Part shown: piece by piece, positions 46,615 through 55,738 of the stretch | Position numbering within the stretch: position 1 is the first letter of the stretch | Layout of the letters: every line of letters starts with the position of its first letter | DNA from: Scytolyngbya sp. HA4215-MV1 | GTDB lineage: Bacteria > Cyanobacteriota > Cyanobacteriia > Leptolyngbyales > Leptolyngbyaceae | DNA: 64,000 bases | Direction: 5' to 3' | NCBI GenBank assembly: GCA_019359045.1 | Contig: JAHHIA010000018.1 | Coordinates: 1-64,000, forward strand | Translations under genes and position numbers: made by a program | The notes under the pieces: generated by a model | Seen by the model: only the letters and a program-made list of their open reading frames with translations | What the model was told of the DNA's origin: nothing | Database searches by the model: none

Positions 46615-46748
46615 GAGATCTCGGTTCGATGGCTTGGTCTCAATTTGTTGGTTTCAATTAATGTGTTCTCCGGATTTCCACCTGTAGACTCTAGACTGTC
46701 AGATGTTCATCGTCTAAAGTCCAGGCGTGACCGAACAAGTTGAGACCT

Positions 46749-47891
46749 ATGCAAATTGACCATATCCATTTCTATGTCCCAGATGCCTGCGCTACGAGAG
46801 ACTGGTTTGTTCGCAGGCTGGGGTTTCAGGGGGTTGGGGCAGGGGGCACGATCGATACTTGGTCAGAAGTGGTGCGAAGTGGATGCATTTACGTAGTGAT
46901 CTCCTCGCCCCTATGCTCATCCAGCCCGATCGCCCATTTTCTGGCAGAACACCCCCCTGGCGTGGTGGATGTTGCCTTTCGCGTGCCTCAACTCACTCCA
47001 GTGCTGACCCATGCGATCGCTCAGGGCGCGACCCTTTTGCAACCTTTGCAAATCAGCCAAACGACAACGGGATTTTTAGAATGGGGACAAATCGCCGCTT
47101 GGGGTACATTGCGGCATACCTTACTCGCTCGCACTGGGATAACGGCGCTATTGCCTAGCTTGCCTCATCTCCAGGTGCAAGTGGAAGCCATGGAATTGAC
47201 CGATCGTTGCACACCCAATCTCCCACCGATTGCTGCAGCCACGACCAAATTCGGGTTGCCGTTTACCAGCATTGATCATGTGGTGGTAAATGTGGCGATC
47301 GGGCAACTGGAACAAGCTATTCACTGGTACGAGCAAGTCCTCGGATTTCAGCCGCAGCAGATGTTTGAAATCCGCACCGCCTATTCTGGGTTATGCAGTC
47401 GAGTGATGGTGCATCCCAACAGTCAAATCAAGTTGCCGATTAATGAACCCACCACTGCCACTTCCCAGATCCAAGAGTTTCTGGATGTGAACCGGGGCGC
47501 AGGCGTTCAGCATATTGCCCTGCATACAGACGACATTCTGAGTACGATCGCCCAACTGCGGGCAAGAGAACTCCCCCTATTGCAAGTCCCCACCACTTAC
47601 TACGATCAGTTACGGCAGCGATTACCCCAATTCAACTGGCAAGCGATCGAAACGGCTCAAGTCCTTGTGGACTGGCAAGACGATGTGCCTCAAGCCATGT
47701 TGCTACAAACCTTTACCCAACCGATTTTTGAACAACCGACTTTCTTCTTTGAAGTGATTGAACGCCAACCCTACTGGAACCAGGGACAATCCAGACGAGT
47801 GCAAGGCTTTGGCGAAGGGAATTTTCGGGCTTTGTTTGAGGCGATCGAGCAAGAACAAATGAAACGCGGCACCCTAAAAAGTGGTGTTTAG
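46749..47891 (+). CDS. hppD: 4-hydroxyphenylpyruvate dioxygenase
   Basis: 380 aa from ATG 46749 (a TTG three codons upstream is unlikely). Two VOC (glyoxalase-like) modules: an N-terminal one (IDHIHFYVPDACATRDWFVRRLGF) and a catalytic C-terminal one with His ligands in SIDHVVVNV and GAGVQHIALHTDDI and the Glu ligand in the FFFEVIER region. The end, GFGEGNFRALFEAIEQEQMKRG, is characteristic of HPPD. It converts 4-hydroxyphenylpyruvate to homogentisate, the head-group precursor of tocopherols in cyanobacteria. Other VOC enzymes are less likely given full length and C-terminus. Confidence 0.92.
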   Translation: MQIDHIHFYVPDACATRDWFVRRLGFQGVGAGGTIDTWSEVVRSGCIYVVISSPLCSSSPIAHFLAEHPPGVVDVAFRVPQLTPVLTHAIAQGATLLQPLQISQTTTGFLEWGQIAAWGTLRHTLLARTGITALLPSLPHLQVQVEAMELTDRCTPNLPPIAAATTKFGLPFTSIDHVVVNVAIGQLEQAIHWYEQVLGFQPQQMFEIRTAYSGLCSRVMVHPNSQIKLPINEPTTATSQIQEFLDVNRGAGVQHIALHTDDILSTIAQLRARELPLLQVPTTYYDQLRQRLPQFNWQAIETAQVLVDWQDDVPQAMLLQTFTQPIFEQPTFFFEVIERQPYWNQGQSRRVQGFGEGNFRALFEAIEQEQMKRGTLKSGV

Positions 47892-51569: not shown

Positions 51570-52079
51570 TCAGTCCCAGGCTCCAGCATTTTGAATGCCG
51601 TACTCTTCCCGTAGCGATCGCAACGATCGTTCCATCACCGTTTCTGGGTTAATATACGCATCAATTTTTTTACCAATACGCCATCCCTGAACGATGCCTC
51701 TGCCATAGAGTTGGCAGACCTGTAGTGGATTGTAATAGCGATCGCCCAACGATCGTCCCCGCAGCGACATACCCAACAATTCCAAAAACACCCCAAAGCT
51801 CTGAGCGTAGTAATACCAGGGTCGCCGCCAAGTAATGGCGGTCAACAAAAAGCCAATCAACCGAAGTTCCTGATCCAGTTGGGTGCTATAGCCTGTTACC
51901 ACATGCATCATGTCGTGTCGCTCCAGATCGCACCAGGGCACCCGAAACCTACCTACCCAAAAATCCTGATCGCGCATGAAAGTAGGATTCGCCTGATAAT
52001 AACGCTGCAATCCTTGTCGAAGCGTGAGGTCTGGCTGAGGTTCAGTGGGTGCCATTGGACAAAGGAAAATCGAATTCAT
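51570..52079 (-). CDS. Coq4-like protein with intact HDxxHx11E motif
   Basis: 169 aa. The Coq4 signature is exact: His55-Asp56-x2-His59-x11-Glu71 (RHDMMHVVTGYSTQLDQE). In eukaryotes and some proteobacteria this zinc or metal site is needed for ubiquinone synthesis, and recent work points to an oxidative decarboxylation role for Coq4. The rest is helical, with RRPWYYYAQSFGVFLELLGMS. Cyanobacteria make plastoquinone, not ubiquinone, so another substrate is likely. It is divergent from the ketosynthase-oxidase operon, sharing a 278-bp promoter region. ATG 52079 has an in-frame alternative at 52055. Confidence 0.75.
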   Translation of the reverse strand: MNSIFLCPMAPTEPQPDLTLRQGLQRYYQANPTFMRDQDFWVGRFRVPWCDLERHDMMHVVTGYSTQLDQELRLIGFLLTAITWRRPWYYYAQSFGVFLELLGMSLRGRSLGDRYYNPLQVCQLYGRGIVQGWRIGKKIDAYINPETVMERSLRSLREEYGIQNAGAWD

Positions 52080-52144
52080 GCCATCAAATCATGAGATTAC
52101 TTCTATTTTGAATTAGTAAAAATCGGATTGAACACCATCAAAGA

Positions 52145-52161
52145 CCACTTGTATGAAGTGG
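52145..52161. promoter_or_regulatory. Inverted repeat in the divergent promoter region
   Basis: CCACTT-GTATG-AAGTGG, followed by a second small palindrome, TTGCA-CTTTTC-TGCAA (52171-52186). Both lie between the Coq4-like gene and the ketosynthase-oxidase gene and could be operator sites controlling both. No regulator gene is adjacent. Confidence 0.3.
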
Positions 52162-52357
52162 CACAAACAATTGCACTTTTCTGCAAGGGCTGATTAAAGT
52201 CAAAAATATCGCGATGAATGGTGAGCGGTCAGTGAGTGGGGTTTGTAGCCAGAAATTTTTCGCAAATTCCTACGATCTCCAACGAACGAACCAGCGCATT
52301 CATTAGCAAGAAGCATCGACACTCACTAACAATATTTTCCTAAAAAAGGTATCTCCC

Positions 52358-54262
52358 ATGTACGGTGTTTACATCAACAGCATCGGCAAATTTTTGCCTG
52401 GAAATCCGATTAGCAATGATCAGATGGAAGACTATCTGGGACGAATCAATGGGCTGCCCTCAAAAGCTAAGAATCGTATTCTAAAAAGCAATGGCATTCA
52501 GCAACGCTATTACGCGCTCGATCATGAACAAAAAAGCACCCATCTCAATAGTCAAATGGCAGCCGCAGCCGTGCGTGATGCCCTCGCACATTTGGATTTG
52601 GAACCGGCTGCGATCGATCTCTTGTGCGCCGGAACTACCTGGGCAGACTTGCTCGTACCCGGCTTTGCCAGCATGGTGCATGGCGAATTGACAGAGTTTT
52701 TACCGATTGAAACCATCTCCACCCATGGCGTTTGTTGCGCCGGGATGAGTGCCCTCAAATATGCTGCTGCCCAAATCGAATTGGGCGCAAAAAGAACTGC
52801 GATCGCTGTTGCTTCCGAACAACCTTCTCGCCTGTTTAAAAAGACGAATTTCGAGGCAGAAAGTCAAATTAAAGCGGGAAAATCCCCTGCATTTGATACC
52901 GAGTTTTTGCGCTGGATGCTATCCGATGGTGCTGGAGCATTTTTGATTCAAAATTACCCTAATTCACAAGGCTTAAGTCTAAAAGTTGAGTGGATTGAAT
53001 TGGTCTCTCATGCGAATGCTTATCCAGTCTGCATGTATGCCGGAGCTGAGGATGAAACTGCCCAAAAAAGTTGGATGAATTACGCTTCTTATGTTGCAGC
53101 AGCGGAAGCCGGAGCCATCAATTTACGCCAGAATATTCGGCTGCTCGATCATGTGATCAAATTGGGCGTGGAAGGATGGTTAAAACTGATTGAATTGGGG
53201 CGAGTTCGTCCCGGTTCAATCGACTGGCTTTTGTGTCACTATTCCTCTCATTTTTTCCGAGGACAGATTGTAGAATTGCTGGAAAAAGCAGGTTGCATGA
53301 TTCCTGAAGAAAAATGGTTTACCAATCTTTACACCCGTGGTAATACAGGCTGTGCCTCCATTTATTTAATGCTGGAGGAACTGTTCCACTCTGGCAAATT
53401 GGCACCTGGGCAAAAAATTTTTTGCTTTGTGCCTGAAAGTGGACGATTCACCACAGCTTATATGATGCTAACGGTGGTGGATAGCAGAGCAAGAGAGCAG
53501 ACCAAGCCACCTACTATCTCAGAATTAAGGGACGTTCAACCTGCACAAAATCTACTGTCTAATCGTCGTGACATCCCGACGCTCTCCACTGCCGGGACAA
53601 TTGAAGAGCCAGTTTCTGCTGACCTATTACGACAACTAGCTTTGGTGTGGCTGGAGTTTGAGCGCAAGTTGAGATCGGTGCCAATCGTCCGTAAACTCCA
53701 TCGGGGCGATTTTACGATCGAAGATTACAAAGCTATGCTACGCAACCTGCGTCCTCAAGTCGTGGAAGGGGCACGCTGGATCGCTCGTGCCGCTTCCAAC
53801 ATGACCGATTTTCGGCTGCGATCGACCTTTATCGGGCACGCCCAAGATGAACACCGCGACTTTCAAATGCTGGAACGCAACTATGTCTCAGTCGGGGGTG
53901 CACTGGAAGAGATTACGCAAGCAGAGAAAAATATTGGTAGCGAAGCGCTGTCAGCATTCATCTTTCACCAGGCATCTCGTGAAAACCCTGTAGATCTGAT
54001 TGGTAGCATATTCATCATTGAGGGGTTGGGCAATCGGTTGGCAGCCCAATGGGCAGCCCAGATCAAACAAACGCTCAGTTTACGCGATGACCAGGTTTCT
54101 TTTCTGGCATACCATGGGGAAAATGATGCATCTCATATTGGCAAACTTGATGCTTTGATCCAGGCAGAGTGGATGACCGCAGAAATTGCCCATCGTATTG
54201 TCAAAACAGCTCAGGTTACAGCCCGCTTATACTTGTTGCAGTTGGAGGAAATTCAGGAGTAA
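52358..54262 (+). CDS. StlD/DarB-like ketosynthase fused to a heme-oxygenase-like di-iron oxidase
   Basis: 634 aa. Residues 1-375 are a ketoacyl synthase III-type condensing enzyme of the StlD/DarB group, which makes dialkylresorcinols or cyclohexanediones from two fatty-acyl units. The Cys-His-Asn triad is complete: Cys127 (GVCCAG), His294 (LLCHYSSHF) and Asn329 (RGNTGC). A linker (376-420) leads to a HDO-like domain (about 425-634), the CADD/UndA type, with H586-x3-D590-x2-H593, Glu555 and a ligand-rich helix HAQDEH (494-499). Such domains bind two irons and activate O2. The likely job is making and then oxidising a lipid-derived ring or chain. First gene of a three-gene operon; the next starts 7 nt later. 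Confidence 0.82.
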   Translation: MYGVYINSIGKFLPGNPISNDQMEDYLGRINGLPSKAKNRILKSNGIQQRYYALDHEQKSTHLNSQMAAAAVRDALAHLDLEPAAIDLLCAGTTWADLLVPGFASMVHGELTEFLPIETISTHGVCCAGMSALKYAAAQIELGAKRTAIAVASEQPSRLFKKTNFEAESQIKAGKSPAFDTEFLRWMLSDGAGAFLIQNYPNSQGLSLKVEWIELVSHANAYPVCMYAGAEDETAQKSWMNYASYVAAAEAGAINLRQNIRLLDHVIKLGVEGWLKLIELGRVRPGSIDWLLCHYSSHFFRGQIVELLEKAGCMIPEEKWFTNLYTRGNTGCASIYLMLEELFHSGKLAPGQKIFCFVPESGRFTTAYMMLTVVDSRAREQTKPPTISELRDVQPAQNLLSNRRDIPTLSTAGTIEEPVSADLLRQLALVWLEFERKLRSVPIVRKLHRGDFTIEDYKAMLRNLRPQVVEGARWIARAASNMTDFRLRSTFIGHAQDEHRDFQMLERNYVSVGGALEEITQAEKNIGSEALSAFIFHQASRENPVDLIGSIFIIEGLGNRLAAQWAAQIKQTLSLRDDQVSFLAYHGENDASHIGKLDALIQAEWMTAEIAHRIVKTAQVTARLYLLQLEEIQE

Positions 54263-54269
54263 GCAGGTT

Positions 54270-54794
54270 ATGAAAATAGGGTTGCACTCAGTCAGTTTAT
54301 TTGCCAGTCTGATCCTGGTGCAGACAGGGGGGGCCTGCTCATACGCCATACCGCTCCCCTCCAGCCATCCTGCGGCTCCCCATACTGCCACCGCATCTTC
54401 AACAGATTTGGCAATCCGCCTGGAGATTGCCCGCAAAAGCTACGAGTCCTACCAGGAACTCTATCAAGCCGGGGCAATTTCTCGGCAAGAACTGGATCAG
54501 GCAGAACAGAATTATCAAATGATCGTTCAAATGACTCGATCGTCTGCACCTAGTATTTTCTCCCAGCCTCTTTCTGTCAAAGTGGCTCGGCACAACCAAA
54601 GAACTGCTCTTCAGGCACAACTCACTGCGGCCGAAGCAACTGTGCAATTCACTCACCAAGACTACCAGCGCTATCAAGTGCTGTATCAAGAAGGAGCAAT
54701 TTCTCGGGAACAGTTTGAGCACCGCGAAAAAGTCTATCGAGAAGCTTTGGCAACCCGCGATACCCTACAAAAACAACTGCAACAGCGACCATGA
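54270..54794 (+). CDS. Secreted protein with two membrane-fusion-protein hairpin repeats
   Basis: 174 aa from ATG 54270 (an upstream in-frame ATG overlaps the previous gene). Residues 1-24 are a signal peptide, with a poor lipobox (GGAC, Cys23). Two similar segments follow: YESYQELYQAGAISRQELD (58-76) and YQRYQVLYQEGAISREQFE (132-150). This is the Y-x2-L-x3-GA-xS-x2-E/Q motif found in the coiled-coil hairpin of HlyD/AcrA adaptors, such as the one encoded at 21931. The lipoyl and barrel domains of adaptors are absent, so it is an isolated periplasmic helical hairpin. It sits between the ketosynthase-oxidase gene and the unknown gene at 54791, overlapping the latter by 4 nt. Confidence 0.7.
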   Translation: MKIGLHSVSLFASLILVQTGGACSYAIPLPSSHPAAPHTATASSTDLAIRLEIARKSYESYQELYQAGAISRQELDQAEQNYQMIVQMTRSSAPSIFSQPLSVKVARHNQRTALQAQLTAAEATVQFTHQDYQRYQVLYQEGAISREQFEHREKVYREALATRDTLQKQLQQRP

Positions 54795-55738
54795 ACCAAC
54801 TAGAACATTCGGCGCTCACTTCTACTTTTGCCGATGCTCCCAACCCTGAATCAATAACATCCCCTAAAACTCAAAATACCTATCTAGTCGAACCGCACAA
54901 TCGCCGCAATCCTAACGCCTGGGATGCTGTCTTCCTCGATCAGGCAATTCCGGTTGATCCGATTGCAAAGGCTTACATGGTCAAGGATTTGCGAAGTTGG
55001 ACGCGCAGCTATCTACTCATCCCAATTAAGGTGATCGCCAATGTATTGCTGGCACTCATCATGACCATCAAGCGTTTGCTACCCTTTCAGTTCAGCCATT
55101 ACTCACTGATGCATCGATCGGCTGCCTGGTTTCTCAACACCTTTGTTTCACCCGAAGCCTGCTACTTGATCGTGCGACATATTTGTCTGGGTTCCAATAT
55201 CGTCAACTTTTTGATTGATAATGGTCCCGATCGGACGATCGAAAAATCGCAACTCTATCCTCGCAAAGTCGAAGACCTAGCAGACAACGCCTTTTTGGAG
55301 CATGACCTGATTTTGTATAACTTTGTGCTGGACTACGCCAAAGCACAGCAAGCCAATCCCCAATGGGTCCACCAGGTGCGCCAACGGGGTATCGACTACA
55401 GCAGCATTCAACCTGTAGCGATCGAAATTGATTTCGATCGTCGTCGTTGGTTGCGGATTCTCGATCTGGAATCTGCGATCGAACTCTTCAAAGTCTTTTA
55501 TTCACTCTGCCTGACGAGCCAAGAATTTGAACGCGCCGTTCTTTCACTTCAGTTTGATGAAAACTTTGGCTGCTACTTCAGCACCGTCACAGAGGATTCT
55601 AGTTGGAACCACGTCATTACCAACCGCCACCCCCTGGCACCCAATAGCCCTTTTCATGCCGCCCGTGATCTTTTGCTCCACGGCATCATTAGCGAATACC
55701 TACACCGCTACCTGGAACTGCGAAAAATGTCAGGATAG
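54791..55738 (+). CDS. Membrane-associated protein of unknown function (possibly DUF6999)
   Basis: 315 aa. Starts inside the stop of the previous gene (ATGA), a sign of translational coupling. After a variable 40-residue N-terminus comes NRRNPNAWDAVFLDQAIPVDPIAKAYMVKDLRSW, then one or two membrane-seeking helices (about 73-95), a conserved-looking FVSPEACYLIVRHICLGSNIVNF and EHDLILYNFVLDY. I recall a similar pattern in DUF6999 proteins, but this is from memory and unverified. No enzyme motif is evident. It is the last gene of the ketosynthase-oxidase operon and probably serves that pathway, perhaps in substrate binding or localisation. Confidence 0.7.
   Translation: MNQLEHSALTSTFADAPNPESITSPKTQNTYLVEPHNRRNPNAWDAVFLDQAIPVDPIAKAYMVKDLRSWTRSYLLIPIKVIANVLLALIMTIKRLLPFQFSHYSLMHRSAAWFLNTFVSPEACYLIVRHICLGSNIVNFLIDNGPDRTIEKSQLYPRKVEDLADNAFLEHDLILYNFVLDYAKAQQANPQWVHQVRQRGIDYSSIQPVAIEIDFDRRRWLRILDLESAIELFKVFYSLCLTSQEFERAVLSLQFDENFGCYFSTVTEDSSWNHVITNRHPLAPNSPFHAARDLLLHGIISEYLHRYLELRKMSG

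Follow-up and report, generated by a model that had tools for sequence, protein, structure and literature searches.

A conserved ketosynthase, dimetal oxidase and DUF6999 gene unit in Scytolyngbya and other bacteria: a candidate module for an aromatic membrane lipid

INTRODUCTION

The ketosynthase DarB yields 4-carboxy-2,5-dialkylcyclohexane-1,3-diones (PMC5515871, citing Fuchs 2013), and DarA is listed as a DAR-aromatase (PMC3949708). In cyanobacteria, DarA/DarB-type dialkylresorcinol clusters, bartoloside-like ones included, have already been reported (PMC8406957). Among the heme-oxygenase-like dimetal oxidases (HDOs), UndA converts fatty acids into 1-alkenes and CO2 (PMC13108848). In vitro, human COQ4 decarboxylates its ring substrate in a Zn-dependent reaction (PMC7615680). 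Relatives of these proteins meet in a locus of the cyanobacterium Scytolyngbya sp. HA4215-MV1, at positions 51,570 to 55,738 of the window, which here means the whole 64,000-nucleotide stretch analyzed (contig JAHHIA010000018.1, positions 1 to 64,000). The locus comprises four open reading frames (ORFs): a Coq4-like gene is divergent from a gene for a ketosynthase (KS) fused to an HDO domain, which is followed by a gene for an alpha-hairpin protein and one for a DUF6999 protein. The ketosynthase, the fold of the HDO and the motif of the Coq4-like protein each belong to a known kind; their combination with DUF6999 appears to be new. In the open-licence literature searched, no paper mentioned DUF6999, brought StlD and DarB ketosynthases together with cyanobacteria, or linked “iron-containing redox enzyme” to ketosynthase or the respective Pfam names to dialkylresorcinol, and the words “ketosynthase” and “polyketide” are absent from the main text of a 2026 HDO review (PMC13108848).

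It is proposed here that KS-HDO and DUF6999 together constitute a conserved module for the biosynthesis of a membrane-associated aromatic lipid of the resorcinol or resorcylic acid type, a reading to which a probability of about 0.5 is assigned.

A CONSERVED THREE-PART UNIT

The KS-HDO fusion protein has 634 amino acids and its gene, on the plus strand, starts at position 52,358 and ends with a stop codon at 54,260–54,262. Seven nucleotides separate this stop from the start of the hairpin gene at 54,270, and an ATGA at 54,791–54,794 joins the hairpin stop codon to the DUF6999 start codon. These features, together with the four ORFs and the HDxxHx11E motif of the Coq4-like protein, were found just as the initial annotation had described them. 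Of the three plus-strand genes that it grouped as an operon, KS-HDO and DUF6999 are conserved together, and the hairpin gene is incidental.

Conservation was assessed in an even draw of 195 cyanobacterial genomes, for which a completeness of at least 90% had been requested. DUF6999 was detected in 29 of them and KS-HDO (E < 1e-50) in 28, each of which also has DUF6999. The one genome left over, G123, carries a DUF6999 piece of 61 residues and no KS-HDO. In G209, KS and HDO are encoded in separate frames. Clustering of the genes on 38 fetched stretches plus the window placed KS-HDO in 33, DUF6999 in 32 and the Coq4-like gene in 21 of them, and every further gene family in at most six, the hairpin family in two. 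The conserved unit therefore consists of KS, HDO and DUF6999. The divergent arrangement of the Coq4-like gene and KS-HDO was also encountered elsewhere, for example in loci L038, L039, L043, L048, L051 and L069. The arrangement of the locus is beyond chance, as it recurs in unrelated genomes.

The unit extends well outside the cyanobacteria. A scan of a one-genome-per-species set with the DUF6999 alignment returned 434 relatives, of which the best 80 were examined; the ranking used similarity to the DUF6999 of G209, an Acaryochloris-type protein, and so favors non-cyanobacterial members, and 77 of the 80 loci are not titled as cyanobacteria (three are Acaryochloris). KS and HDO were located on the same strand no more than 3.5 kb upstream of DUF6999 in 74 of the 80, in one frame in 51 loci and in separate frames in 23, some of which may be frame breaks. 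Among the remaining six loci, three showed HDO only and three showed neither domain, and five of the six start at contig ends. According to their titles, the carriers include Alpha-, Beta- and Gammaproteobacteria, Myxococcus, Corallococcus and Archangium, Paenibacillus and Cohnella, Gemmata and Limnoglobus, as well as metagenome-assembled genomes (MAGs) labeled as Acidobacteria, Chlorobiales, Anaerolineae and others. A control search also detected DUF6999 in Caulobacter vibrioides. One match was found among 72,556 plasmid records, a Pseudoalteromonas plasmid on which the three genes are adjacent. Around the units of these further loci, the largest further family was seen in 14 of 81 stretches, and its listed places are mostly Paenibacillus or close kin. 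The conserved neighborhood that the initial annotation had proposed to search for in related genomes thus exists, and no product assigned to homologous clusters was found in what was searched.

The analysis of sequence constraint started from 114 loci, 11 of which were dropped because one of the three domains was not close to full length; some of the 103 retained loci come from close relatives. Pairwise distances between the three parts correlate, as expected for co-inheritance, with r values of 0.86 for KS-HDO, 0.64 for KS-DUF6999 and 0.54 for HDO-DUF6999, compared with a highest value of 0.14 in 200 shuffles, relatedness being uncorrected. The DUF6999 protein of G209 (L055) matches that of an Acaryochloris MAG at 97%. 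It shares 70% identity with its counterpart in the gammaproteobacterium Saccharospirillum (L080), where KS and HDO match at 60 and 63%, and only 30–34% with other aligned cyanobacterial copies. Since the Acaryochloris-type unit is closer to that of Saccharospirillum than to the other cyanobacterial copies (L055, L077–L081), transfer of the whole unit is suggested, and these sequence likenesses point to at least one transfer between phyla.

THE KETOSYNTHASE DOMAIN

The first 375 residues of the fusion protein (52,358–53,482, plus strand) provide strong sequence evidence for membership in the StlD/DarB ketosynthase family. The solved StlD structure (PDB 5gk0) matches this domain with E = 8e-92, and the StlD/DarB model NF005293 scores 450.4 bits with the domain alone and 448.6 bits with the whole fused protein, which is borderline at a cut-off of 450. 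The catalytic-type residues C126, H294 and N329 are invariant in all 103 loci. Within the 195 cyanobacterial genomes, the ketosynthases of this type scoring above 360 bits are exactly those of the unit's 28 genomes; the next scores are 64 bits, for a fragment of the split KS of G013, and then 48 bits.

Comparison with the described DarA/DarB and StlD systems reveals the same KS family, with Cys, His and Asn aligning to the same positions of StlD 5gk0. What differs is the set of partners, HDO and DUF6999 standing where the other systems have the DarA aromatase; in addition, the KS is often fused to HDO and scores below the curated DarB level. Bartoloside-type clusters likewise bring DarB homologs into cyanobacteria, but they contain DarA and DarB homologs together with CylC-type halogenases (PMC8406957), in contrast to the HDO and DUF6999 of the unit described here. 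As for DarA itself, the families clustered around the unit included none that was widely shared besides HDO and DUF6999, a search with a DarA profile not having been made.

THE DIMETAL OXIDASE DOMAIN

A variable linker (53,483–53,587), whose alignment columns are unconserved, connects the KS to the HDO domain (53,588–54,259, plus strand). The Pfam model PF14518 recognizes the window protein at 27.2 bits (E = 4e-6), just under its cut-off of 28.9. The predicted structure has a mean pLDDT of 95.5 and aligns with Z-scores of 25.8 to PDB 3dde, 24.5 to CADD (1rcw; 209–214 residues in these two alignments) and 19.5 to UndA (4wwj), so that the model gives a clear heme-oxygenase-like helical fold. In window numbering, H494, E498, D501, E555, H586, D590 and H593 make up the predicted metal site, and all seven are invariant in the 103 loci. 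As in UndA and CADD, which share the fold, the later helices contribute the standard Glu and the HxxxDxxH motif. The domain differs from both in being joined to a ketosynthase and in its first helix, which displays an invariant H-x3-E-x2-D in place of the usual Glu-His; the solved relative 3dde has H-x3-E-x2-H. The usual E-H-X-H-D/E-H ligand motif is thus incomplete here, as the usual His after the first-helix Glu is missing. A Glu followed by His is present in about 85% of the HDO groups analyzed in one study (PMC11363339). For H494, E498 and D501, metal binding is a prediction in each case.

DtpC of Acinetobacter, which contains an HDO-like domain, limits hydrogen peroxide in dried cells (PMC13232832). 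By analogy with the role proposed for DtpC, the HDO could be a peroxide or oxidative-stress protein, and the product of the unit could be a cyclohexanedione that stays non-aromatic or some other signal derived from fatty acids. Such strict coupling to a KS with catalytic-type residues kept in all 103 loci would hardly be expected of a general stress factor, and such a role is considered very unlikely.

DUF6999

The third component (54,791–55,738, plus strand; 315 amino acids) matches the DUF6999 family PF22523 with 361 bits against a cut-off of 27. Hydropathy analysis identified a single strongly hydrophobic stretch at about residues 73–94. The conserved motifs are HD, DE, NxHP and HGxxxE; H171, D172, D256, N278, P281, H297, G298 and E302 are invariant in all 103 loci and E257 is retained in 102. 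The conserved His, Asp and Glu residues suggest catalysis. The AlphaFold model has a pLDDT of 85.6, and comparisons made with it neither find nor exclude a known fold: the best Foldseek E-value is 0.6, and the best VIA-align Z-score is 4.3 over 135 residues, to unrelated helical proteins. A search of solved structures with DUF6999 returned one chance-level match (E = 0.99).

Of the examined loci, only L130, from a Thiothrix MAG, lacks both KS and HDO despite enough sequence around its DUF6999 gene (L130:7803–8861), which provides a possible clue to the function of DUF6999 on its own.

GENES OF LIPID TYPE BESIDE THE UNIT

Several of the 80 loci carry genes of lipid type within 1 kb of the unit, the Pfam assignment of which was made on L099, L108, L152 and L109 only. 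An L099-like gene of the fatty acid hydroxylase family was present in 12 loci, which belong to Myxococcota, Paenibacillus, Beta- and Gammaproteobacteria, a Planctomycetota MAG and a Flavipsychrobacter MAG. An L108-like desaturase gene occurred in seven loci and an L109-like gene encoding an MFS-acyltransferase-AMP-ligase protein in five. These neighbors fit work on lipids.

They also bear on a different assignment of roles, in which the KS makes the carboxy-cyclohexanedione, DUF6999 processes the ring and the HDO oxidizes an alkyl chain, which would for example gain a terminal alkene or a hydroxyl group. The recurrence of hydroxylase- and desaturase-like genes suggests chain modification, the HDOs include the fatty-acid enzyme UndA, and the retention of H171, D172, D256, H297, E302 and nearly always E257 would suit a ring-processing DUF6999. 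Nevertheless, the encoding of KS and HDO in one frame in 51 of the 74 complete loci favors consecutive steps on the same intermediate, and this division of labor appears unlikely.

In G025 (L040:6641–9800), genes for a CDP-alcohol transferase, a CdsA-like protein, a PlsC-type acyltransferase and a methyltransferase are located between KS-HDO and DUF6999. This set resembles the ynbABC genes of E. coli.

THE COQ4-LIKE PARTNER

The Coq4-like gene (51,570–52,079, minus strand) encodes 169 amino acids and is separated from KS-HDO by a divergent intergenic region of 278 bp (52,080–52,357). Its product contains the metal motif HDxxHx11E as H55-D56, H59 and E71. The motif is present in 14 of 15 aligned Coq4-like sequences, the window protein included, and in the remaining one (L042) a Tyr replaces the second His. 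The match of the window protein to PF05019 is weak (14.7 bits, E = 0.019, under the cut-off of 22.9); 11 of the 15 aligned members reach E ≤ 0.1, with 0.019 as the best value. A profile of the 15 relatives retrieved PDB 6e12 (Alr8543) with E = 0.0035, followed by a designed protein at 0.032. Likeness to Coq4, the ubiquinone ring decarboxylase, thus consists in the shared motif and the weak profile match to Alr8543, and the window protein differs in falling below the Pfam cut-off, which three Coq4-family genes elsewhere in the same genome pass. These three genes of the window's genome (G000; C31, C23 and C21, loci L157–L159), one of which has an internal TGA in the matched frame, were returned by a PF05019 search that did not list the window copy.

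Strong Coq4-like matches occur in 18 of the 195 cyanobacterial genomes, and 16 of these 18 also possess KS-HDO (one-sided Fisher p = 4e-14, relatedness uncorrected); two genomes with weak matches (E of about 5e-4 to 8e-4) and no KS-HDO were excluded from the 18. Within the window's family, the gene is present in 10 of 10 genomes with KS-HDO and in 0 of 11 without (p = 3e-6). Among the fetched stretches, 15 loci (counting the window) have it beside the unit and five genomes have it elsewhere, so that the co-occurrence is independent of linkage. In the sequence fetched around the 80 further loci, with flanks of up to 8 kb, no Coq4-like match was seen, the rest of those genomes being unsearched; since the gene lies away from the unit in five of 20 cyanobacterial cases, a search of flanks can miss it. 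So far, the Coq4-like partner has been seen only in cyanobacteria. In two cyanobacteria of different families, YiaA/B two-helix proteins are encoded between the unit and the Coq4-like gene (L040:14324–14743 and L049:8011–8475).

The close tracking of KS-HDO by the Coq4-like gene in the window's family, and an HDO of the O2 type, might argue for a quinone-type pathway, in which ring formation by the KS is combined with hydroxylation by the HDO and an oxidative ring step catalyzed by the Coq4-like protein, yielding an electron-carrying alkylated hydroxyquinone lipid. Reportedly, a 2024 study had COQ4 performing oxidative decarboxylation in cells. In vitro, however, human COQ4 gave the decarboxylated product only, hydroxylation being carried out by COQ6 (PMC7615680). 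The blank flanks of the 80 further loci indicate that the core product may not need a Coq4-like protein, and no widely shared further family, hence no conserved methyl- or prenyltransferase, was seen around the unit, where most ORFs are unannotated. A quinone of this kind is therefore judged improbable. Of the “polyketide- or quinone-like lipid” suggested initially, the first half is supported, a polyketide-like ring lipid being in keeping with an StlD/DarB-type KS plus an oxidase of the O2 type, and the second half, understood as a product of the ubiquinone type, is not supported in view of the COQ4 activity and the same flanks.

A PROPOSED ROUTE TO AN AROMATIC LIPID

Gene unit, conservation, distribution and the constancy of the catalytic-type residues are solid observations, to which the following route adds reactions and a product by inference. 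Given its family and intact catalytic-type residues, the KS domain would act as DarB does, joining a beta-ketoacyl and an enoyl thioester to a 4-carboxy-2,5-dialkylcyclohexane-1,3-dione. The HDO domain, using O2 and its dimetal site, would then oxidize the ring to the aromatic state in place of the DarA aromatase. In an UndA-like variant, removal of the hydrogen beta to the carboxylate together with loss of CO2 would lead directly to a 2,5-dialkylresorcinol. If the HDO only dehydrogenates, the product would be a resorcylic acid with its carboxyl group ortho and para to the hydroxyls; where present, the Coq4-like protein might remove this remaining carboxyl as a metal-dependent ring decarboxylase, like human COQ4 in vitro. 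At the membrane, DUF6999 could either catalyze another step or receive the lipid.

Several findings weigh against this proposal. The window KS scores only at the general StlD/DarB cut-off of NF005293, and with NF053539, the curated dialkylresorcinol DarB model, it attains 399.8 bits where 550 are required. UndA-like chemistry may not carry over, because the first-helix H, E and D differ from the usual E-H pair. DUF6999 is without functional annotation or a convincing fold match. An acyl carrier protein or acyl ligase was not among the eight window proteins scanned, the other window genes being unscanned, and most loci have none of the lipid-type genes alongside. The two genes of the unit, KS-HDO and DUF6999, lie on separate contigs in G016. 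Some copies look damaged: the KS of G013 harbors an insertion sequence, most of the HDO of G145 is gone and G041 shows a frame break. Lastly, 12 of the 28 cyanobacterial KS-HDO genomes are without a strong Coq4-like match, and G083 and G086 (the latter with a fragment at a contig edge) have the Coq4-like gene without KS-HDO; the gene is consequently an optional partner.

A bolder version of the aromatic-lipid proposal holds that the unit represents an undescribed, phylum-spanning route to an aromatic membrane lipid, in which an oxygen-using dimetal enzyme with a non-standard metal site replaces DarA and DUF6999 constitutes a new family of membrane lipid enzymes. This version is put forward tentatively, at somewhat below even odds. 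If the aromatic-lipid reading is right, a common class of bacterial lipids has been overlooked, as the 434 stretches with DUF6999 relatives in the one-genome-per-species set, and the three-part unit in 74 of the best 80 examined, would imply; it would become possible to test what DUF6999 and an unusual HDO subgroup do, and aromatization by O2 without DarA would be a new enzymatic solution. The suggestion of a lipid locus not described in cyanobacteria can be kept for the HDO/DUF6999 wiring, which is new. It has to be narrowed in two respects: the unit is not special to cyanobacteria, and the dialkylresorcinol ring class is not new in this phylum because DarA/DarB clusters have already been reported there (PMC8406957).

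THE HAIRPIN GENE AND OTHER NEIGHBORS

The hairpin gene (54,270–54,794, plus strand) encodes 174 amino acids and yields partial matches to the adaptor models TIGR00999 and TIGR01730. All of them stay far under the cut-offs of this membrane-fusion-protein family, the best-ranked one covering a part of the protein and reaching 39.8 bits where 319.3 are required. The protein contains two repeats and, by hydropathy analysis, a hydrophobic N-terminus, with which it is probably exported; it is related to the membrane-fusion-protein hairpin and is a lineage-specific extra. The gene adjoins the unit in the window and in G019 only. It was rejected as a component of the system and placed outside the conserved unit because it clusters in just two of the 33 KS-holding loci, window included.

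The insertion that interrupts the KS of G013 (L042:9759–10939) has inverted ends of 18 nt, a flanking repeat of 8 bp and a UPF0236-like ORF below the Pfam cut-off.

About 4 kb from the unit, the window contains a gene of the 4-hydroxyphenylpyruvate dioxygenase type (46,740–47,891; TIGR01263, 323 bits). This gene, which could connect the locus to plastoquinone or tocopherol, does not occur among the families listed around the cyanobacterial units. A fatty acid desaturase gene (PF00487; 57,865–58,677) is located about 2 kb downstream of the unit on the opposite strand, and two ORFs, of 136 and 427 amino acids, lie between it and the unit. The 427-amino-acid ORF resembles proA.

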